64,000 nt of DNA from positions 682,001 to 746,000 of the forward strand of contig NZ_ARQF01000020.1 of assembly GCF_000384815.1 (NCBI RefSeq), given 5' to 3'. The stretch is from Halodesulfovibrio aestuarii DSM 17919 = ATCC 29578 (GTDB lineage: Bacteria; Desulfobacterota; Desulfovibrionia; Desulfovibrionales; Desulfovibrionaceae). Made by a program: the position numbers and the translations under genes. Of this stretch, positions 8,766 to 52,164 are shown in pieces. Positions within the stretch are counted from its first letter, which is position 1, and every line of letters begins with the position of its first letter. The notes beneath the pieces were generated by a model. That model made no database searches, was not told the DNA's origin, and was given only the letters and a program-made list of their open reading frames with translations.

Positions 8766-9839
8766 TTATAATCTTTCAACAACCAAATTACCCATAGTGT
8801 TACAGCCTACAAGAGTTTCACCTTCAGACATGATGTCTCCGGTTCTGTAGCCTTCACGTAATACTTTCTGCACGGCTGCTTCAATTGCGTTTGCTTCTTT
8901 AACGAGATTGAAGGAATGACGCAGCATCATTGCCATGGAAAGAATTGAGGCAAGCGGGTTTGCTTTGTTTTGCCCTGCAATATCCGGAGCGGAGCCATGA
9001 ATCGGCTCAAAAAGACCGGTGCCAGATTTGTTGAGGGATGCAGAAGGAAGCATGCCGATGGAACCGGTGATGACTGCTGCTTCATCAGACAAAATGTCGC
9101 CAAAAAGGTTGCCGGTCACGATAACATCAAACTGGTTCGGGTCGCGAACAAGCTGCATTGCTGCGTTATCAACGTACATGTGGCTAAGTTCAACTTCTGG
9201 ATATTCAGTTGCAACTTCTTCCACTACGGCTCTCCACAGACGGGATACTTCAAGAACGTTTGCTTTATCTACAGAACACACGCGCTTGTCACGTTTCATA
9301 GCTGCTTCAAAAGCAATTCGGGCAATGCGGCGCACTTCATCTTCATTATACACCATTGTGTTATAACCATAACGCACGCCGTCCCGTTCTTCCTGCCCTT
9401 GTGGCTGACCAAAGTAAATACCACCAGTAAGTTCGCGCACTACCATTACGTCGATACCGTCTTTTACAATATCAGGGCGCAGGAAACATGCACTGGAAAG
9501 CTCTGGAAACAATTTGGCAGGACGCAAGTTAGCAAACAGACCAAGCTCTTTACGGATACCAAGCAATCCAGCTTCAGGACGAGTTGCACCATCCAGATTA
9601 TCCCACTTAGGACCACCTACAGCCCCGAGAAATACGGCATCTGCCTTCTTACACGCTTCAACAGTTTCCTGCGGCAACGGGCTTCCTGTGGCGTCAATAG
9701 CACAACCGCCGATAAGCTCTTCGGTAAACGTTACCTTATGACCAAACTTGTCTGCAACTTTCTTTAAAACTTCTACTGCCTGCTTGGTGATTTCCGGCCC
9801 GATGCCGTCACCCGGCAATAACGCGATATTCATATCCAT
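8766..9839 (-). CDS. leuB: 3-isopropylmalate dehydrogenase
   Basis: NAD- and divalent-metal-dependent oxidative decarboxylase that converts 3-isopropylmalate to 2-oxoisocaproate, the third step of leucine synthesis. The 357-residue protein opens with [12 protein letters not shown], has the substrate loop around GGPKW, and contains the signature [25 protein letters not shown] in two adjoining parts. The ATG at 9839 is preceded by GAGGG. It is the last gene of leuA-leuC-leuD-leuB and ends at the shared terminator. Confidence 0.96.
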
Positions 9840-10601: not shown

Positions 10602-11858
10602 CTACACTTTGCGTGGGTCTGCGATCTCACCTGCTAATGCACTTGCCGCAGCTACGGAAGGGCTTGAGAGGTAGACTTCTGACTCAAGGCTGCCCATGCG
10701 TCCTTTAAAGTTACGGTTCGTTGTAGCTACTGCCACTTCACCGTCAGCAAGGATACCCATGTGACCACCGAGACATGGTCCACAGGTTGCAGGGCCTACG
10801 ATACAGCCTGAATCCATAAAGGTTTCGATGAGACCTTCACGCAATGCCTGTTTCCAGATATTCGGTGTTGCCGGAAGAACAATGGTACGTGTATGTGAAG
10901 CGACTTTGCGTCCTTTGAGTACGGCAGCGGCTTCACGAAGATCACTGATACGACCGTTGGTACAAGAGCCGATAACGACCTGATCAACCTTTTTAGGTTC
11001 GACATTTTCGACTGGATGCACGTTATCCGGCAAATGCGGACATGCAACCATCGGTGACATGTTTGATACGTCGAAGATAAGAACACGTTCATATTCTGCG
11101 CCTTCATCCGGTGAAAGAGCTTCATCGTGACGACCGCGTGCGGCTGTGTATTCGAGTGTTTTCGCATCCGCAGAGAAGAGACCGCATTTACCGCCGGCTT
11201 CAATAGCCATGTTAGCTATAGTCATACGGCCTTCCACATCGAGAGCATCAATTGTGGAACCACCGAATTCCAGAGCCTTATAAAGTGCACCGGACACGCC
11301 GATTTCACCGATGAGACGCAGAATAAGGTCTTTTGCGCCTACGAACTCAGGAAGTTCGCCATTGAAAACTGCACGGATTGTTGGCGGAACTTTGAACCAT
11401 GTAGAACCAAGTGCCATACCGCCTGCTACATCTGTTGAGCCAAGGCCTGTTGCGAAAGCTCCAAGACCACCATAGGTACAAGTATGAGAGTCCGCGCCGA
11501 TTACAATGTCACCGGGGCCAACGAGTCCAAGCTCAGGCAAGAGAGCGTGTTCAACACCACAATTACCACCTTCGTAGTAATGGGTAATATTTTGTTCCTG
11601 CGCGAATTCACGGGTATTTTTGACCTGAATTGCGGATGCGATATCTTTTTGGGGAGTAAAGTGGTCCATAACAAGTGCCACTTTGTCTTTATCAAACACA
11701 GACTTTGCACCCATTGCCTTAAACGACTTAATCGCGAGCGGTGCGGTAATATCATTTGCAAGAACCAAGGAAACATCACACTGAACGATCTGTCCGGTTC
11801 CTTCGATTTTTTGGTCTGTGTGTCTCTGTAAGATTTTTTGTGCGAGTGTATACGCCAT
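10602..11858 (-). CDS. leuC: 3-isopropylmalate dehydratase large subunit
   Basis: Aconitase-family subunit that holds the [4Fe-4S] cluster. The 418-residue protein is the shorter bacterial/archaeal form rather than the roughly 465-residue E. coli form. Cluster cysteines lie in VIGSCTNG and in CGPCLGGHMG, and IGADSHTCTYGGLG is the other family signature. Its ribosome-binding site GGAGGG is formed by the last codons of leuA, so the two genes are tightly coupled with a 5-base gap. Confidence 0.96.
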   Translation of the reverse strand: MAYTLAQKILQRHTDQKIEGTGQIVQCDVSLVLANDITAPLAIKSFKAMGAKSVFDKDKVALVMDHFTPQKDIASAIQVKNTREFAQEQNITHYYEGGNCGVEHALLPELGLVGPGDIVIGADSHTCTYGGLGAFATGLGSTDVAGGMALGSTWFKVPPTIRAVFNGELPEFVGAKDLILRLIGEIGVSGALYKALEFGGSTIDALDVEGRMTIANMAIEAGGKCGLFSADAKTLEYTAARGRHDEALSPDEGAEYERVLIFDVSNMSPMVACPHLPDNVHPVENVEPKKVDQVVIGSCTNGRISDLREAAAVLKGRKVASHTRTIVLPATPNIWKQALREGLIETFMDSGCIVGPATCGPCLGGHMGILADGEVAVATTNRNFKGRMGSLESEVYLSSPSVAAASALAGEIADPRKV

Positions 11859-11863
11859 GACTG

Positions 11864-13384
11864 TTAACCCTCCGAGTTCATTTTATCGAGTCTATTTAAA
11901 GCGTTCAGGAATGCTCTTGCGCTAGCGGCAATGATGTCAGGATCGGATCCACGTCCAACTGTGCTGTATCCATTCTCTTCAAGGCGTACGGTTACTTCGC
12001 CCTGAGCATCTCCACCACTGGTTATGGCGTTCACACTGTATCGATTGAGCTTTGGTGCACGCCCAACGATCTGAGAAATGGTTTTAAATACTGCATCAAT
12101 CGGACCTGTGCCGAACGTAGTGTGCTCTCTGCGAATGCCGTTAATTTCCATTACAACAGCAGCGCTTGGTGGCACGCCCACATCACTTGACTGAACGGAG
12201 AGATGTACCAGTCTGTATTTATCCGGGATACGGTAGACTTCCTCAAGGATAATTGCCTCAATGTCTGCGTCGTAAACCTTCTCTTTTTTATCTGCGAGGC
12301 GTTTTACTGCCTCGAAAACAATCTGTAATTCGTTATCTTCCAACGGATAACCAAGCTCGGTTGTTTTTCCTTTAATGGCGTTACGACCGGAATGTTTACC
12401 GAGGATGAGATCTGTTTTTTCACGGCCTACGGACTCAGGGGTCATGATCTCGTAGGTTTCGCGGTTCTTGAGCATGCCGTCCTGATGGATACCGGACTCA
12501 TGCGCAAATGCGTTTGCGCCGACAATTGCTTTATTGGCAGGAATCGGCTGACCGATGATCATTGAAAGTAAGCGGCATGTCGGGAACAACTGCTCAGACT
12601 TCACGTTAGTTTCAATGCCGTAGTAATCACCACGAGTACGCAACGCCATTATGAGCTCTTCAAGAGCTGCGTTACCGGCTCGTTCTCCGATACCGGAGAT
12701 AGTCACCTCTGCCTGCCTTGCACCTGCATTAATTGCAGCAAGGGTGTTTGCCACACCAAGACCGAGGTCGTTATGGCAATGCACACTAAAAATAGCCTTA
12801 TGGCTGTTGCTAGTGTGCTCAATTACGTGGCGAACCATATCTCCGAATTCCTGAGGTTGTGCATACCCCACAGTATCAGGAATGTTGATGGTGGTTGCGC
12901 CTGCATTAATTGCTGTTTCTGCTACTTTTGCAAGGAAATCCCAATCGGAGCGGGATGCATCTTCCGCAGAAAATTCAATATTAGAGGTATACTTAGCTGC
13001 ATGCCTTACAGCCGCTTCTGTCATTTCCAAAACCTGTTCCGGTGTTTTACGAAGCTTGTACTCCATATGTACCGGACTGGTTGCTAAAAACGTATGGATT
13101 CGTGGATGCTTTGCGTCTTTAATTGCATCCCAGCATCTATCAATATCCGCCGCCATCGCTCGGCACAACCCAGCAACCTGTGTATGCTTAACGGTCTGTG
13201 CAATCTTGCGTACTGCTTCAAAATCCCCTTGGCTTGCAGCAGGAAATCCTGCTTCCATAATATCGACACCCAAATTCTCAAGTTCACGCGCGAGACGAAT
13301 TTTTTCGTTCTGGTTCATTGTTGCGCCGGGAGACTGCTCTCCATCTCTCAAAGTGGTATCGAAAATGTATAAGCGATCGGACAT
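11864..13384 (-). CDS. leuA: 2-isopropylmalate synthase
   Basis: Condenses 2-oxoisovalerate with acetyl-CoA, the committed step of leucine synthesis. The 506-residue protein has the DRE-TIM catalytic barrel with [13 protein letters not shown] (catalytic RDGE), metal-site HCHNDLGLG, the ESGIHQDG subdomain, and a C-terminal LeuA regulatory domain where leucine feedback normally acts. The start has AGGAG seven bases upstream; this AGGAG forms a tiny CTCC/GGAG hairpin. A candidate leader peptide precedes it. Confidence 0.96.
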
Positions 13385-43195: not shown

Positions 43196-43930
43196 CTACT
43201 TTCCAGCAAAAATAAAAGCACCGGAAAACTCATTACCAAGAGCATGCTTTGCACGCTCAGCGGCTGTATAGGTTAAATAAGGGCCAACGTGCACCTTCCA
43301 GATACTGGAACTTATATCCTGATACAACCGACAGGAACGTCCCTCTTGAACTATTTTTTTCCGGAGCGTCTGGGCATTAAATTTATCCCCGAAAGAACCA
43401 ACCTGAACATAATATGTTCCACCGGTTTTATTGGGAGCAGAGGCCACAGTACTATGATTAGGCCCGCCGATAGCTTCCAGCTTAACCGAAACAACGCCGG
43501 GGCCAAGCATACCAAGTTTCTGTGCCGCCGAGTGTGTTAAATCAATAATACGCCCTTCAACAAAAGGCCCTCTATCGTTAACACGAACAACAACAGAACG
43601 GTTGTTCTCTATGTTTGTTACACGTACGAGAGTACCAAAAGGCAAATTTTTATGCGCAGCAGTCATGCCGTACATATCGTAGCGCTCACCATTAGCGGTT
43701 TTTTTACCGTGAAATTTTTTACCGTACCAGGACGCTTTGCCGAACTGCACAAAATTTTCAGATGAGGCCAACGTATTGTAGCGTTTTCCCCATACAGCAT
43801 ATGAACCGGCAGATTTAGCTTTGGTAGAGGTAGTCGCTGACTGTCTGTGCGGAGAAGCTATGTGCTTCTTTCCACACCCGACAAGCGATATGAGACATGC
43901 AATACAAAGCGAAAAAATAAAGACTCGCAA
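43196..43930 (-). CDS. rlpA: RlpA-type septal lytic transglycosylase lipoprotein with SPOR domain
   Basis: A 244-residue outer-membrane lipoprotein: signal peptide with lipobox LVGC (Cys19), a double-psi beta-barrel RlpA domain (about 60-150; GKASWYGKKFHGKKTANGE, VRVNDRGPF with the catalytic Asp) and a C-terminal SPOR domain (about 168-240; YYVQVGSFGD) that binds denuded septal peptidoglycan. It starts with TTG, supported by GGAG six bases upstream. Confidence 0.92.
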   Translation of the reverse strand: MRVFIFSLCIACLISLVGCGKKHIASPHRQSATTSTKAKSAGSYAVWGKRYNTLASSENFVQFGKASWYGKKFHGKKTANGERYDMYGMTAAHKNLPFGTLVRVTNIENNRSVVVRVNDRGPFVEGRIIDLTHSAAQKLGMLGPGVVSVKLEAIGGPNHSTVASAPNKTGGTYYVQVGSFGDKFNAQTLRKKIVQEGRSCRLYQDISSSIWKVHVGPYLTYTAAERAKHALGNEFSGAFIFAGK

Positions 43931-44041: not shown

Positions 44042-45865
44042 CTAACAAAGTACTTCGGGCTTTTTTCCTTCTTCCAGCTCGCATTCGCGCTGTAAAAGTT
44101 GCTCAAGCATAATATCTGCACCGACCACACCTGTAATATTATCGTGACCATCTGTAACAGGGGCTGAAACCGTCAAAATAAGCTGCCCTGTAAAATGCGA
44201 TGTGTACAAGTTGGTAATATGCAGTTTGCCTGTCTGAATCGGCTTCTGGAACCACTCTCTGGATGAGAAGTCATACCCGATATCAAGCACTTCATACTTT
44301 TCTTTAAACCGCATATCAGTAATTTCCGAAGCAATCAGACCACCGTCTTTGTCCGTCAGATACAGATACTGAATAAACGGATAGTCCTGTACAAAGTCTG
44401 TCAGGCAACCATAGTTTTCTTTTGCAAGAATAACGTTACAATCCACTGACAATTTGGAAATAAGTGTAGCCGCAAGATTATGTGCAACCTCTTTAAGGTT
44501 ATCGAAGTCCGTGCGGAACATTTCCGGCATATAGCGGCGCACAAGGCGTTCCATTTCTTTGTTAGAAACAGAAGTGGATCGGCCATTTTCATACGCTTCC
44601 ATAATCCTATCGTACACTTTACCTACGGATGGGTGACGTTTTGAAACTTCATTGTCACCTGTAAGTTTAAGTGTCTGGTTAATCCAGTAGGCTACACCGG
44701 CTCTACCGGATTTATCTGTGATGATAATCGGTACAGGACGGTTAAGAAGACGGCTGGTATCAAAGACGTTGTAAATCTCTTCGTTTTTAGCAAGGCCATC
44801 CACGTGGATACCTGCACTCGTAGCGTTAAAATCACGCCCGACAAACGGATAGTTATCTGCAACTTTGTACTCAAGCTCGTTTTCGAAATATTCACAGATT
44901 TCGCTAATTACACGGGTATCAGCGGATTCATCGTGACCGGTAAGAGATATGTATTCAATAATAAGCGCCTCAATAGGCGAGTTACCGGTACGTTCACCAA
45001 ACCCGAGCAACGTTCCGTTAGCGCCACCACAGCCATACAGCCATGCTGTTACTGCGTTAACTAACGTCTTATGAAAATCGTTATGTCCGTGCCATTCCAA
45101 CCATTCACTCGGCACACCGACTTCATCTGTAAACGCGCGTACAATACGAGGAACAGAACGCGGGAGCGTTGCTCCAGAGTACGGGACACCGTAGCCCATT
45201 GTATCACACATTCGAATTTTAACCGGCAGTCCACTCTGGCGGGAAAGCTCCATCAGCTTTTCTGCGAACGGCAAACAGAATCCATAAATATCAGAGCGGG
45301 TAATGTCCTCAAAATGACAACGAGGAGAAATGCCCCAAGCCAATGCTTGTTCAATAACCTCAAGGTAGTTACGCATTGCCTGTTCACGATCAAGCCCAAG
45401 CTTTAAGTAGATATGGTAATCAGAAACTGAAGTAAGCATCCCTACTTCTTTAAATTCCATACTCTTAGCTATTTTCAGATCATCCTTATGGGCACGAATC
45501 CATCCGGTAATTTCCGGGTATTTGTAGCCTCTGGAGCGACAGGCATCAATGGCACGCTTGTCTTTATCAGAGTACATAAAGAACTCAGAGGCACGGATCA
45601 ATCCGCTTCTGCCACCAAGCCTATGCAGCATATCAAAAATAGTTTCAATCTGCTTTACCGTGTACGGAGGTCTTGCCTGCTGACCATCCCGAAATGTTGT
45701 ATCGGTGATGAACATTGGCTCCGCCGGGCGCGGTGCCACAAAAACATCATCAAACGCGATACGGCTAATCTGCTTATAAGGAAACAGATCGCGATAATAT
45801 TCACCTTTTTCAAGGTTCTCAAGTTTAAGCTTCGATGTCGCGCGATTTAGATGAAACAAGGTCAC
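44042..45865 (-). CDS. Isopropylmalate/homocitrate-synthase-like enzyme fused to a Cache-like sensor domain
   Basis: A 607-residue protein. Residues about 50-325 form a DRE-TIM metallolyase barrel with TDTTFRDGQQARPP (catalytic RDG), LEWHGHNDFHK (metal HxH) and GFGERTGNSPIE. About 330-460 resembles the connecting subdomain of LeuA (TSAGIHVDGLAKNEE). Instead of a LeuA leucine-binding domain, the C-terminus (about 475-590) reads like a Cache/PDC sensor: YLTDKDGGLIASE, FSSREWFQKPI, TGQLILTVSAPV, GVVGADI. No membrane segments are visible, so the sensor would be cytoplasmic. The reaction is unknown. It starts with GTG behind AAGGAGGG and overlaps the upstream TPR-like gene by 41 bases. Confidence 0.8.
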   Translation of the reverse strand: MTLFHLNRATSKLKLENLEKGEYYRDLFPYKQISRIAFDDVFVAPRPAEPMFITDTTFRDGQQARPPYTVKQIETIFDMLHRLGGRSGLIRASEFFMYSDKDKRAIDACRSRGYKYPEITGWIRAHKDDLKIAKSMEFKEVGMLTSVSDYHIYLKLGLDREQAMRNYLEVIEQALAWGISPRCHFEDITRSDIYGFCLPFAEKLMELSRQSGLPVKIRMCDTMGYGVPYSGATLPRSVPRIVRAFTDEVGVPSEWLEWHGHNDFHKTLVNAVTAWLYGCGGANGTLLGFGERTGNSPIEALIIEYISLTGHDESADTRVISEICEYFENELEYKVADNYPFVGRDFNATSAGIHVDGLAKNEEIYNVFDTSRLLNRPVPIIITDKSGRAGVAYWINQTLKLTGDNEVSKRHPSVGKVYDRIMEAYENGRSTSVSNKEMERLVRRYMPEMFRTDFDNLKEVAHNLAATLISKLSVDCNVILAKENYGCLTDFVQDYPFIQYLYLTDKDGGLIASEITDMRFKEKYEVLDIGYDFSSREWFQKPIQTGKLHITNLYTSHFTGQLILTVSAPVTDGHDNITGVVGADIMLEQLLQRECELEEGKKPEVLC

Positions 45866-46649
45866 AGTTTTTTACCCTCCTTGGAGACGAATCTTTTAAC
45901 AATTCTTCAATTTTTTGGCGCACGGTAGCAGCTCTGGTACACGCAGGATTTATCTGCTCTGCTTCTGTAGCTGCCTCTAACGCCTCATCAAGGCGTCCTC
46001 CTTCCAAAAGCCCTTCTGCTGCCAGAATGTACATTTCTTCCGGCATCGTTCCATAAATAGAAGAAATTAATGTGTCATAATCTTTCCCGAACACACGCTT
46101 AACCAAGCTGTTACGAGAAAATAATAGCCGGGCAACCAAAAGATTTTTTTTGTTATGTGCGCAATAGATGCAAAAAAGCGTATTGCAGCGTGCGAGTAAG
46201 AAAGAGATACGGGCAATTTCTCGAGACATACTCTCTCGTGTTTCGCCAAGAAGCTGTGAAAAAGGCTCCACAACATCCTGGATGCCATTTTCAGCTGCGG
46301 GCTGCTCCAATGCTTTAAACATCGGAGCATAATGCTGTTGCTGGTAGGCATCCTCTTTCAGCTTAATGCATTCGTGGAATACATAACTGATAGCCCAGTC
46401 CAGTGCTTTTGCTACTACAGGAGCCTGCGCGTCTGTTCTGAGCAAATGATGAGCAGTATCTTTCAAGCGCCAAAGCAGGCCCTTGTTCATGGTGCTACCT
46501 AGCAAGTCACGCACTTGTGTAAACGAAACCGCACCAGAGTCTGCAAAACGTATAAACTGCTTTTCAAGTATGCTCGATACCATACAAAAATCACGCAGAA
46601 TATCGCGCGCAAATTCTTCTCTATTGGCTTCTATCCATTGGCGGGACAT
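45825..46649 (-). CDS. TPR-like protein of unknown function
   Basis: A 274-residue mostly helical protein. The first 200 residues resemble nothing I know (ARDILRDFCMVSSILEKQF). The C-terminal part (about 215-262) looks like one or two TPR-type helices (AAEGLLEGGRLDEALEAAT, AEQINPAC). Two cysteines lie in FCIYCAH. The ATG at 46649 has GAGGTGA upstream; the longer hydrophobic extension to 46820 is unlikely. Its 3' end overlaps the enzyme-Cache fusion, implying coupled translation and perhaps a joint role. Confidence 0.6.
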   Translation of the reverse strand: MSRQWIEANREEFARDILRDFCMVSSILEKQFIRFADSGAVSFTQVRDLLGSTMNKGLLWRLKDTAHHLLRTDAQAPVVAKALDWAISYVFHECIKLKEDAYQQQHYAPMFKALEQPAAENGIQDVVEPFSQLLGETRESMSREIARISFLLARCNTLFCIYCAHNKKNLLVARLLFSRNSLVKRVFGKDYDTLISSIYGTMPEEMYILAAEGLLEGGRLDEALEAATEAEQINPACTRAATVRQKIEELLKDSSPRRVKNCDLVSSKSRDIEA

Positions 46650-46920
46650 GATCACCTCATCTCGTGTTGCATCGATCACAATACATGGTTTTACAAAAAA
46701 GTAAAACCAAGCACTACACAAAGCCCCCACTGTGTTAAGCAAGTGGACAACTGAACCAACCATCAGAACTCGTTGAGTATCCAATTGATACGCATTCTGT
46801 GCAACATATTTTACGATCAAAATTCACTTTATGATTTAACCTAAGGGCTGCGCACTAAAAACATCATTACGTCTAATTAATAACATTATTATACAAGCAT
46901 TTCATTCTAATTTTTCTAGA

Positions 46921-47790: not shown

Positions 47791-49104
47791 ATGGCGAAAC
47801 ACGCAACTCCTATGTTGGATCAGCTCGAAACCGGCCCTTGGCCAAGTTTCGTATCCGACATTAAGCAGGAAGCAGCAATGCGTGCTGCTAACCCTAAAGG
47901 CCTTGATTACCAGATCCCTGTAGATTGTCCTGACGATCTCCTCGGTGTTCTGGAACTTTCTTACAACGACGGTGAAACTCACTGGAAACACGGCGGCATC
48001 GTAGGCGTATTCGGTTACGGCGGCGGTGTTATCGGTCGTTACTGTGACCAGCCAGAGATGTTCCCTGGCGTAGCACATTTCCACACTGTACGTTTGAACC
48101 AGCCTGCTGGTAAATACTACACCACCGATTTCCTCCGTCAGCTTTGCGACATCTGGGATCTCCGTGGTTCTGGTCTTACCAACATGCACGGCGCAACTGG
48201 TGACATCGTACTTCTCGGTACTACCACCCCTCAGCTTGAAGAAATCTTCTGGGAAGTTACTCATAACATGGATAACGACCTTGGTGGTTCCGGTTCTAAC
48301 CTGCGTACTCCTGCTGCTTGTCTCGGCGAGTCCCGTTGTGAATACGCTTGTTACGATACCCAGGCTGCTTCTTACAACTTGACCATGGAATACCAGGACG
48401 AACTTCACCGTCCAGCATTCCCATACAAGTTTAAATTCAAGTTCGACGGCTGTCCTAACGGTTGCGTAGCTGCTATGGCTCGTTCCGACTTCTCAGTTGT
48501 TGGTACTTGGAAAGACAGCATCAAAATCGATCAGGAAGCTGTAGCTGCTTACGTTGCTGGCGAATTCAAGCCAAACGCAGGCGCACACTCCGGTAAAGAT
48601 TGGGGTGCATTCGACATCGAAGCTGAAGTTATCAACCGTTGTCCTTCCGCTGCTATGAAGTGGGAAGGTGGCAAACTCGCTATCGATCGTTCTGAATGTG
48701 TTCGTTGTATGCATTGCATCAACACCATGCCTCGTGCTCTCCATATCGGTGATGAGCGTGGCGCATCCATCCTTTGTGGTGCAAAAGCACCTATTCTCGA
48801 TGGCGCACAGATGTCCTCACTCGTAGTTCCATTTGTTGAAGCTAAAGGCGACTTTGATGAAATCAAAGAAGTTGTAGAAAACATTTGGGATTGGTGGATG
48901 GAAGAAGGCAAAAACCGCGAACGTCTCGGTGAGACTATGCGTCGTCTTTCCCTCCAGAAACTCCTCGAAGTTGTAGGTCAGGAACCATCTGCTCACAACG
49001 TTCAGGAACCTCGTCACAACCCATACATCTTCTTCAAAGAAGAAGAAGTACCTGGTGGTTGGGACCGCGACATCAACGAATACCGTAAGCGCCACCAGCG
49101 CTAA
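47791..49104 (+). CDS. dsrA: Dissimilatory sulfite reductase alpha subunit
   Basis: Subunit of the DsrAB heterotetramer that reduces sulfite with siroheme and [4Fe-4S] clusters, the terminal step of sulfate respiration. The 437-residue protein has the siroheme/cluster cysteines in CLGESRCEYAC and DGCPNGC, and an inserted ferredoxin domain with CVRCMHC. GGAGG precedes the ATG. Codons are strongly biased, fitting very high expression. It is followed 18 bases later by dsrB. Confidence 0.98.
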   Translation: MAKHATPMLDQLETGPWPSFVSDIKQEAAMRAANPKGLDYQIPVDCPDDLLGVLELSYNDGETHWKHGGIVGVFGYGGGVIGRYCDQPEMFPGVAHFHTVRLNQPAGKYYTTDFLRQLCDIWDLRGSGLTNMHGATGDIVLLGTTTPQLEEIFWEVTHNMDNDLGGSGSNLRTPAACLGESRCEYACYDTQAASYNLTMEYQDELHRPAFPYKFKFKFDGCPNGCVAAMARSDFSVVGTWKDSIKIDQEAVAAYVAGEFKPNAGAHSGKDWGAFDIEAEVINRCPSAAMKWEGGKLAIDRSECVRCMHCINTMPRALHIGDERGASILCGAKAPILDGAQMSSLVVPFVEAKGDFDEIKEVVENIWDWWMEEGKNRERLGETMRRLSLQKLLEVVGQEPSAHNVQEPRHNPYIFFKEEEVPGGWDRDINEYRKRHQR

Positions 49105-49122
49105 GAAGAGGAGTACAATAAC

Positions 49123-50268
49123 ATGGCATTCATCTCTTCTGGTTACAATCCAGCTAAACCAATGGAAGGCCGTATCACTGATATTGGCCCTCGTGAATTT
49201 ACCGAATTCCTTCCTCCAGTAATCAAGGCTAACAAAGGTAAGTGGGCATACCACGAAATCCTCGAGCCTGGCGTACTGGTACACGTTGGTGAATCCGGTG
49301 ATAAAGTATTTACCGTACGCGTAGGTGCTGCACGTCTTATGTCTGTTACTCACATTCGCGAAATCTGCGAAATTGCTGACAAACATTGTGACGGCTACCT
49401 TCGTTTCACAACCCGTAACAACGTTGAATTTATGACTGACAGCGAAGATAAAGTAGCTGCTCTTAAAGCAGACCTCGCTGCTCGTAAATTCGACGGTGGC
49501 TCTTCCAAATTCCCTGTAGGTGGTACCGGTGCTGGTGTTTCCAACATCGTTCACACTCAGGGTTGGGTACACTGCCACACCCCTGCAACTGACGCTTCTG
49601 GTCCTGTTAAAGCTGTTATGGATACAGTATTCTCAGACTTCCAGAATCATCGTCTCCCAGCTCCTGTACGTATCTCCCTCGCATGTTGTCTCAACATGTG
49701 TGGTGCTGTACACTGCTCCGACATCGGTATCGTAGGTATTCACCGTAAACCACCTATGATCGACCACGAGTGGACTGACCAGCTTTGTGAGATCCCTCTT
49801 GCAGTTGCTTCTTGTCCTACCGCTGCAGTTCGTCCTAGCAAGGTTGAACTCGAAGGTAAGAAAATCAACACCATCGCTATTAAGAATGAACGTTGCATGT
49901 ACTGTGGTAACTGCTACACTATGTGTCCTGCTCTTCCTATCTCCGATGGTGAAGGTGACGGCGTTGTAATCATGGTTGGTGGTAAGGTTTCTAACCGTAT
50001 CTCCCAGCCTAAATTCTCTAAAGTAGTTGTAGCATACATTCCTAACGAAACTCCTCGTTGGCCTACACTTACTGAGAAAATCAAACACATCATTGACATC
50101 TACGCTGACCACGCTATGAAATACGAGCGTCTTGGCGACTGGATTGAACGCATTGGTTGGGAAAAGTTCTTCGAACTCACCGGCCTCGAGTTCACCCAGC
50201 ACCTCATTGATGACTTCCGTGACCACGCTTACTACACCTGGCGTCAGACTACCCAGTTCAAGTTCTAA
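49123..50268 (+). CDS. dsrB: Dissimilatory sulfite reductase beta subunit
   Basis: A 381-residue partner of DsrA. It carries [11 protein letters not shown], the cluster cysteines in [11 protein letters not shown] and a ferredoxin insert [17 protein letters not shown] precedes the ATG. In known DsrAB structures the beta subunit binds the catalytically active siroheme. It ends with QFKF. A 12-bp hairpin separates it from dsrD. Confidence 0.98.
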
Positions 50269-50688: not shown

Positions 50689-52164
50689 ATGACCCTTCCC
50701 AGACTCATTATAGCTGGCCTTAACGGCGGTACAGGAAAGACCATTACCAGTCTTGGCACGACCCGAGCCTGGAGTCGTAAAGGCAAATGTATTAAGCCAT
50801 TCAAAAAAGGGCCTGACTACATTGATGCAAAATGGCTGGCACTTGCTTCACAACACCCTTGTACCAACCTTGACCCATATCTTTTAAATAACGCTACCCT
50901 TAAAGCCTTGTTCGCTACAGCCGCAGCGGGATACGAAGGAGCGCTTATTGAAGGCAATCGGGGACTGTTCGACGGTAAAGATATCACTGGAACCTGCTCC
51001 ACTGCAGAATTAGCCCGTATTATTAACACGCCGGTTATCCTTGCTATGGACTGCACAAAAATGACCCGTACAGCCGCAGCAATCCTCACCGGCATGCTTA
51101 ACTTTGAAGATGACCTTCACATAGCTGGCGTTATTCTTAACCGCACAGCAACTGACCGCCATCGTTCCATTTTACGGCAAACAATTGAACACTACACGGA
51201 TGTGCCGGTACTCGGTTGTCTGCCTAAAATTAAACATAACCCTATCCCAGAAAGACATATGGGGCTTATTTCCAACGCAGAATACGCTGGAACAAATTCC
51301 GCTCTTGAAGAAGTTGCAGACATCATAGAAGACCATCTTGATGTAGAAATGATGTGGGAGATCGCATCTGCTGCACCAGAATTTTCCACTCAGCCAAATG
51401 TCTGGGATATAGCCGAACAAGCAATCACAGGGGCAAACTCAACGCCTACAATCGACACTCCATGCGCAACGACAATGCCTTTGTGTCCGGAAGTCAAACC
51501 GACAATGGCCCCGCGCATCGGCTATGTGCATGATGACGCCTTATGGTTTTATTATGATGAGAACTTACAGGCATTACAGCATGCAGGTGCACAACTGGTT
51601 CGTCTTTCAATCACATCTGACAAGGACTGGCCGCAGATTGATGCCTTATACTTAGGCGGAGGCTTCCCTGAAACGATGCATGAATCCATCACTGCAAATA
51701 AAAAAATCTGCGAACACGTACGTGGACTCGCAGAAAGCGGAATGCCAATTTACGCCGAATGCGGCGGATTTATGTATCTGTCCAAGGCTCTTGTTCAAGA
51801 AAAAAGCACATCCTCTATGGCAGGCGTGCTTCCAGTCCAAACCCAACTGTGTAAACAGCCTCAAGGGCTTGGCTACATTGATGCAGAAGTGATTAAAGCC
51901 AATCCATATCATCCGCTGGGTTCTGTAGTTCGCGGGCATGAATTCCACTATTCAAAGTGTATCATCGAAAACGAACAGCCGACATTTGGCTTTCGTCTGT
52001 CAAAAGGCTTCGGCATGGGAGAGCGTTTAGACGGGCTCATCTACAAGAATGTTTTTGCATCCTACACCCATTTATTCGCGTTAGGCGAACCACATTGGGC
52101 TGTTAACTTTGTTCGAGCTGCTCAGGAATTCAAATCCGGAACGCCTGTGACTACTGCCCAATAA
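50689..52164 (+). CDS. dsrN: CbiA/CobB-family amidase, probable siroheme amidating DsrN
   Basis: A 491-residue ATP-dependent glutamine amidotransferase. The N-terminal synthetase domain has LNGGTGKT and KKGPDYIDAKW; the C-terminal GATase domain has the nucleophile in YAECGGFMYL and the histidine in SYTHLFA. By family it would be cobyrinate a,c-diamide synthase, but its place after dsrABD fits DsrN, which amidates siroheme for DsrAB in sulfur and sulfate metabolism. Both activities could coexist. No other cobalamin genes lie in the window. Confidence 0.88.
   Translation: MTLPRLIIAGLNGGTGKTITSLGTTRAWSRKGKCIKPFKKGPDYIDAKWLALASQHPCTNLDPYLLNNATLKALFATAAAGYEGALIEGNRGLFDGKDITGTCSTAELARIINTPVILAMDCTKMTRTAAAILTGMLNFEDDLHIAGVILNRTATDRHRSILRQTIEHYTDVPVLGCLPKIKHNPIPERHMGLISNAEYAGTNSALEEVADIIEDHLDVEMMWEIASAAPEFSTQPNVWDIAEQAITGANSTPTIDTPCATTMPLCPEVKPTMAPRIGYVHDDALWFYYDENLQALQHAGAQLVRLSITSDKDWPQIDALYLGGGFPETMHESITANKKICEHVRGLAESGMPIYAECGGFMYLSKALVQEKSTSSMAGVLPVQTQLCKQPQGLGYIDAEVIKANPYHPLGSVVRGHEFHYSKCIIENEQPTFGFRLSKGFGMGERLDGLIYKNVFASYTHLFALGEPHWAVNFVRAAQEFKSGTPVTTAQ

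Follow-up and report, generated by a model that had tools for sequence, protein, structure and literature searches.

The gene at positions 44042-45865 (minus strand) of the window, the whole 64,000-nucleotide stretch of Halodesulfovibrio aestuarii DNA analysed here, encodes a 607-residue protein in which a Re-citrate-synthase-like enzyme is joined to a C-terminal Cache domain. The two-domain architecture, the Cache fold, the conservation of the pocket and the lack of a membrane anchor are established by computation, and the reading of the whole that we consider likely is that of a cytosolic Re-type citrate synthase with a single C-terminal Cache as its allosteric domain. Citrate synthases of this type are rare, and Cache modules ordinarily sit on the cell surface, as parts of chemotaxis receptors.

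Results

The reading frame begins with a GTG at 45865, ends with a stop at 44042 and forms one intact gene of 607 codons. A ribosome-binding site, AGGAGG (45876-45881, minus strand), is found about 10 nt 5' of the GTG, within the end of the upstream ORF. As to the start position, the alignments of seven of the ten nearest relatives among the matches listed (64-68% identity) begin at residue 1 or 3, and those of the other three at residue 7-15. Promoter-like sites near the gene were about as frequent as in shuffled sequences (12 versus a mean of 9.0), and terminator-like sites exceeded the shuffles (12 versus 4.8).

The catalytic part is an HMGL-like (DRE-TIM) barrel at residues 53-318 (44912-45709, minus strand), matched in Pfam with 106.4 bits against a cut-off of 29. 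It carries HxH and RDG motifs, which bind metal, and contains the blocks TFRDGQQ, HGHNDF and GFGERTGN with invariant residues found across 82 aligned proteins. The barrel is followed by a post-barrel subdomain (residues 319-450; 44516-44911, minus strand), about where the Bacillota homologues stop, and in the AlphaFold model a long helix (residues 453-479; 44429-44509, minus strand) links the catalytic part with the Cache domain, which Pfam, a profile search of the PDB and the predicted fold place at residues 452-593 (44087-44512, minus strand). Among the 82 aligned proteins the Pfam family HMGL-like is present in all, MCP-like_PDC_1 in 75, dCache_1 in 74 and YkuI_C in eight. This alignment comprises the window protein and 81 of the 91 other matched loci; near-copies were thinned (L012, L023, L050, L054, L088 and L090), and cut or late-starting loci (L063, L064, L066 and L068) were omitted. 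By alignment, seven of the 82 are without a Cache; six of these are from Bacillota and the seventh is L085, which has a masked C-terminus.

The C-terminal domain is a member of the Cache superfamily. In Pfam it matches dCache_1 at residues 450-593 (62.1 bits, cut-off 45) and MCP-like_PDC_1 at residues 493-590 (53.5 bits, cut-off 27), and the sequence profile of the domain alone recovers Tlp3, KinD and PctA in the PDB. Only positions 36-157 of the 240 in the dCache_1 profile are covered and the predicted model has one module; the Cache is a single module, equivalent to half of the double-Cache profile, and not a double Cache. A Cache-only AlphaFold model of the C-terminal 156 residues, built on 70 of the 75 Cache regions (L009, L017, L039, L047 and L089 were omitted), reached a pLDDT of 86 and a pTM of 0.82, and its best Foldseek match was the KinD sensor domain 4jgo (E 1.3e-8, TM-score about 0.63 by query length), followed by WalK, PctA and Tlp3, with YkuI also among the PDB matches. 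The predicted models show a Cache/PDC fold with a long N-terminal helix. The whole-protein model, built on 82 sequences, has a mean pLDDT of 87 and a pTM of only 0.74, so that the relative placing of the two domains is uncertain; its nearest Foldseek neighbours are homocitrate, methylthioalkylmalate and isopropylmalate synthases, the top solved structure being a homocitrate synthase. Since hydropathy over 19-residue windows peaks at only 1.25, no membrane helix is expected and the protein should be cytosolic; the usual extracellular placement between two membrane helices does not apply here, and a peak of 1.6 is reached in only three of the 82 members. The first-pass annotation had called a C-terminal Cache/PDC sensor, had seen no membrane segment and had proposed a structure prediction as a check, and it was right on the domain and on the membrane, the model of the C-terminal part matching the sensor domains named above.

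A survey of the fusion, proposed in the same annotation, found it to be widespread. Among 97 homologues in the sample from the phylum of the window's genome, the alignment included the Cache in 94; G013 and G031 lack it, and the gene of G125 is cut by the contig. Further fused members, named from the titles of public bins among the best 80 of at least 558 confirmed stretches, come from Nitrospirota, Spirochaetota, Lentisphaerota, Elusimicrobiota, Omnitrophota, Fibrobacterota and others. Distances between Cache domains and between catalytic parts are correlated (Mantel r 0.78 over 75 proteins, a value reached in none of 999 permutations). An origin of the fusion in a truncated or chimeric assembly is ruled out by this covariation of the two halves together with the recurrence of the fusion in the phylum sample, and the simplest reading of these comparisons would be one fusion followed by mostly joint descent of both halves. 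Homologues were found in 36 of the 299 genomes sampled from the Bacillota, the phylum to which the Paenibacillus genome G197 belongs; no match there extends beyond residue 481 and none of the 36 carrier genomes has the fusion, hence the Cache is probably not needed for catalysis.

A tree of the catalytic domain, from which the window protein itself (L001), L066, L068, L116 and the duplicates L090 and L103 were omitted, placed the Bacillota proteins in one group that includes G031, with an SH-aLRT value of 91, below the 95 mark. Presence and absence of the Cache account for three changes on this tree, one of which we read as the masked L085. The outgroup branches measure about 7 to 10 changes per column, the tree is not reliably rootable, and it does not order gain and loss of the Cache. 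No Cache ORF was found near the Cache-less genes of two genomes of the same phylum (L114 and L115). The first of these (G013:C15:18500-24500) is a homologue with 56% identity and no Cache ORF in 6 kb; it is a probable case of loss of the Cache domain and would be a natural comparison for kinetics. In six Bacillota genomes (G353, G377, G401, G467, G488 and G509) the catalytic part has two or three homologues, the extra ones showing 41-52% identity to the window protein.

The putative ligand pocket of the Cache consists of R536, W538, F539, Y554, S556 and D584 (44114-44260, minus strand), as delimited by conservation and by alignment with PctA and KinD. G508, W538, F539, S556, L562 and D584 are invariant across the 75 Cache-bearing proteins, R536 is present in 70 (with K or H in four of the remaining five), and the Y554 position is Y or F in 73. 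The mean identity of the six pocket columns is 97%, compared to 61% over residues 487-592, and none of 20,000 random sextets was as high. The full dCache_1AA motif, in the numbering of PctA, is Y121, R126, W128, Y144, D146 and D173. Aligned with PctA, whose numbers were assigned by motif spacing, R536 corresponds to R126, W538 to W128, Y554 to Y144, S556 to D146 and D584 to D173; the motif is thus incomplete, with R, W, Y and D retained, D146 replaced by S, and a tyrosine at the Y121 position in 12 of the 75 proteins. R131 of KinD, the residue mutated in 4jgq/4jgr, aligns with R536. In PctA, R126 contacts the ligand carboxyl and D173 is key to both the amino-acid and the amine motif, and Y121, R126, W128, Y144 and D173 are named as residues of dCache_1AA (PMC10104139, in the part available).

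Such conservation is what a functional site for binding a small acid would be expected to show, and it bears on the best surviving alternative, namely that the protein is a Re-citrate synthase whose Cache has no sensory function and serves only for structure or oligomerisation. The long helices of Cache domains could indeed mediate dimer contacts, and the 36 Bacillota carriers have homologues that lack the domain; however, positions known to contact the ligand in PctA and KinD are among the conserved columns, and the pocket residues W538, F539, S556 and D584 stay unchanged in proteins from several phyla, so we regard a purely structural role as rather unlikely. Because W538, S556 and D584 are invariant in all 75 Cache-bearing proteins, ligand-gated control is likely, that is, the activity of the enzyme is likely to be gated by a small molecule.

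The pocket gives some indication of what this molecule might be. The retained aspartate D584 leans toward an amino-acid ligand and the serine in place of D146 leans away from the standard amino-acid motif, and dicarboxylate binding by the distal module of a dCache_1 domain is known (PMC12415202, in part). On these grounds L-glutamate or a 2-oxo or dicarboxylic acid may be named as first candidates, with low confidence. L-glutamate, which would act as end-product feedback, is put forward tentatively; 2-oxoglutarate or another 2-oxo or dicarboxylic acid is a possible, if more doubtful, ligand; a compound outside all of these groups would be unlikely, and pyruvate more unlikely still.

The enzyme itself is very probably a Re-citrate synthase (KEGG K05942; PMC11964587, in part), likened to the proven enzymes by description, genome content and context. 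We base this on the content of the genome, the mutual exclusion with Si-citrate synthase, the gene context in relatives, and the reported use of Re-citrate synthase in Thermodesulfobacteriota including Desulfovibrio / D. vulgaris (PMC12016533, in part). The first-pass annotation had described an isopropylmalate/homocitrate-synthase-like acyltransferase in which the sensor takes the place of the LeuA allosteric domain. The DRE-TIM acyltransferase half and the missing LeuA domain are both borne out, and so is the relatedness to these synthases, which provide the best models; the identity left open there is probably not that of either synthase, as the evidence favours Re-citrate synthase. LeuA_dimer (PF08502) was not found in the window protein by Pfam, whereas the LeuA and CimA of the same genome, serving as positive controls, show it. 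No NCBIfam equivalog is reached: the best models are homocitrate and isopropylmalate synthases, all far below their cut-offs, with NifV (TIGR02660) at the top (132 bits versus 462.9), and the three family proteins scanned (the window protein, L078 and L081) obtained only distant isopropylmalate/homocitrate synthase scores.

The genome (3.55 Mb, 99.99% complete) holds three further homologues of the catalytic part, namely LeuA and CimA, both above their equivalog cut-offs, and a NifV-like gene whose best model is NifV with 298 bits, below the cut-off of 463. The ORF beside the NifV-like gene is presumably NifH. Given the scores, the LeuA equivalog score among them, the lack of LeuA_dimer and the existence of separate genes, we rejected LeuA, CimA and homocitrate synthase as identities of the window protein. 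An anti-phage role was likewise rejected, PADLOC giving no match. The leuA gene lies within the window (12266-13381), together with leuC-like (10629-11840) and leuB-like (8781-9830) genes, all on the minus strand, the latter two named by us from their matches to the aconitase and Iso_dh families and their position beside leuA. Si-citrate synthase (PF00285) was not found in the genome, a search that gave matches in 13 of 14 control genomes, and aconitase and NADP-isocitrate dehydrogenase are both encoded with scores over the NCBIfam cut-offs, at sites not adjacent to the fused gene.

The exclusion was examined in 197 genomes of the phylum, of which 97 have a close homologue and 99 a full-length Si-citrate synthase. 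The fused-gene family alone was found in 82, Si-citrate synthase alone in 84, both in 15 and neither in 16 (Fisher p 2e-23, with shared ancestry ignored). Ten genomes in which PF00285 gave only partial or weak matches, with E values no better than 1e-80, were left out of the count of Si-citrate synthase carriers; we read most of these matches as putative ATP-citrate lyase. The same pattern recurs within the window's own family, where G037 and G184 are without the gene and have Si-citrate synthase, and the window's genome and five other members have the homologue and no Si-citrate synthase. Outside the sample, 16 further fused-gene genomes, reached through named loci, comprised 11 without PF00285, one with a partial match and four with a full-length Si-citrate synthase, and both Paenibacillus genomes tested, which have the Cache-less form, also have Si-citrate synthase. 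The exclusion is thus strong though not strict in the phylum sample and weaker outside it, and the result in the 16 further genomes slightly lowers our overall confidence. Both synthases have been reported in C. thermocellum and C. kluyveri (PMC6115520, in part). Among the genomes with neither enzyme (G008, G020, G039 and 13 others), eight of the 16 had partial PF00285 matches.

In some relatives, operon-like gene clusters point the same way. Of the fused loci, 75, the window's own among them, extend 1,200 bases or more downstream of the gene; at 23 of these an isocitrate-dehydrogenase- or aconitase-like ORF lies downstream on the same strand (22 of 74 without L090, which has the same sequence as L012), and the examined flank of the other 52 contained no such neighbour. 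Loci with these neighbours occur in Desulfovibrionaceae, Syntrophorhabdales, Elusimicrobiota, Omnitrophota and Nitrospirota, and since the gene order varies among them they probably do not represent one inherited operon. Only two of 20 Cache-less loci, most of which have short flanks, have such neighbours. The dehydrogenases of L009 and L036 pass the cut-off for NADP-isocitrate dehydrogenase and the hydratase of L065 that for aconitase; the aconitase-like neighbour in the Desulfovibrio locus L009 fits a general 'hydratase' model better than aconitase, the dehydrogenase of L065 passes no cut-off, and the dehydrogenase-like ORF at L060 is about as close to LeuB. An aconitase follows the Bacillota homologue L105, one of the two Cache-less loci with such neighbours, and the Re-citrate synthase gene of C. 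thermocellum is reported to lie next to aconitase (PMC6115520, in part).

These data also speak to a second alternative, that another 2-acyltransferase, a homocitrate, citramalate or isopropylmalate synthase or one with a new substrate, is gated by the Cache. The ranking of the NCBIfam models, the homocitrate synthase as top solved structure and the coexistence of Si-citrate synthase with the gene in some genomes would fit this, but the scores fall far under the cut-offs, LeuA, CimA and NifV-like functions have genes of their own in a genome without Si-citrate synthase, and isocitrate dehydrogenase clusters with the gene in relatives, which together make such an enzyme improbable.

Discussion

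A Re-citrate synthase gated by its Cache might operate as follows. Acetyl-CoA and oxaloacetate would be condensed to citrate in the DRE-TIM barrel, the reaction and its Re stereochemistry being those we infer for the protein. A small metabolite bearing a carboxylate would bind in the Cache pocket, with R536 directed to the carboxylate and W538, Y554, S556 and D584 around the rest of the molecule. Binding would then shift the long helix 453-479 relative to the post-barrel subdomain, and the helix would pass the signal to the catalytic domain, changing the rate of citrate formation. On balance we favour the view that a Cache was captured from membrane signalling as a cytosolic allosteric domain, so that in several phyla a receptor-type pocket controls the commitment of acetyl-CoA to 2-oxoglutarate and glutamate. 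A small molecule sensed within the cell would then switch the entry of carbon into the synthesis of glutamate. Most carriers of the Cache-fused enzyme are probably anaerobes. That the Cache instead senses redox state, oxygen or a metal, and so protects an oxygen-sensitive enzyme, is very improbable: sensitivity to oxygen has been described for Re-citrate synthases (PMC6115520 and PMC12016533, both in part) and 53 and 50 of the 75 Cache domains have Cys at 563 and His at 549, respectively, yet every Cys and His column varies, with isoleucine at 563 in the window protein, and the conserved pocket matches carboxylate-binding Cache modules.

Re-citrate synthase (EC 2.3.3.3) of the C. kluyveri and S. 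aciditrophicus type has the same kinship with homocitrate and isopropylmalate synthases and is found in anaerobes. The Bacillota homologues end after the catalytic part, whereas the window protein continues with the Cache. For the S. aciditrophicus enzyme a subunit of 73 kDa is reported, a size that would agree with the fused form. LeuA resembles the window protein in combining an HMGL-like barrel with a C-terminal allosteric domain, but the latter is LeuA_dimer, a different domain from the one fused here. KinD of B. subtilis (4jgo; 4jgp with pyruvate) is a sensor kinase with a two-module membrane architecture; its sensor shares with the window Cache the stretch Y-x-S-x-x-T-G and the arginine R131/R536, but has F where the window protein has W538 and no aspartate at the D584 position. 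The dCache_1AA sensors PctA and Tlp3 are closer in the pocket, R126, W128, Y144 and D173 of PctA being matched by R536, W538, Y554 and D584, and differ in that the window Cache is a single module without membrane helices, has S556 for D146 and is fused to a metabolic enzyme. An intracellular Cache, as in the window protein, is also found in YkuI_C and in the stand-alone dCache_1AM of Actinobacteria; these are associated with an EAL domain (YkuI_C) or share an operon with a transcription factor (dCache_1AM), and not with an enzyme of central metabolism (PMC4822843 and PMC10104139, both in part).

Cache domains are mostly extracellular, 78% being confidently predicted so, and for the architectures analysed in the same census the outputs were known signalling ones, except in one family (PMC4822843, in part). 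An intracellular stand-alone Cache has been called a rare example of repurposing (PMC10104139, in part). In the open-access literature we found no description of a citrate or isopropylmalate synthase fused to Cache, or of an HMGL-like/dCache_1 fusion, although subscription papers or domain databases may show one. The available sections of three papers on Re-citrate synthase (PMC8542988, PMC3971608 and PMC12613926) contain nothing on Cache, and in those of a Dehalobacter paper that names both Re-citrate synthase and allosteric control the two are unrelated. Hence, the catalytic family is already known and its fusion with Cache appears undescribed in the open-access literature. If our reading is true, the Cache fold would here be put to a different and widespread use, the allosteric regulation of an enzyme of central carbon metabolism. 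It would also point to a specific way in which bacteria that possess Re-citrate synthase might regulate the flow of carbon into the oxidative branch. The pocket residues offer a set for an immediate ligand screen, and annotation may benefit as well, as the three family proteins scanned receive only distant synthase scores in NCBIfam.

The genes flanking the enzyme in the window have less obvious connections to it. The upstream ORF (45825-46820, minus strand) overlaps the start of the enzyme gene by 41 nt and has no assigned family, with weak TPR matches below the cut-off; its homologues (38-49% identity) precede the enzyme gene in L008, L010, L018 and L049, and those of L010 and L018 gave no Pfam match. 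Downstream of the enzyme gene lies an RlpA-type gene with a SPOR domain (43196-43930, minus strand), possibly on the same transcript. Homologues of it are found near the enzyme gene in 10 other loci, a pairing that recurs though there is no obvious metabolic link. Further along the window, on the plus strand, two ORFs at 47791-50268 read as dissimilatory sulfite reductase subunits, with NIR_SIR matched in the first, and are followed by an ORF at 50689-52164 which we take to be a cobyrinate diamide synthase.
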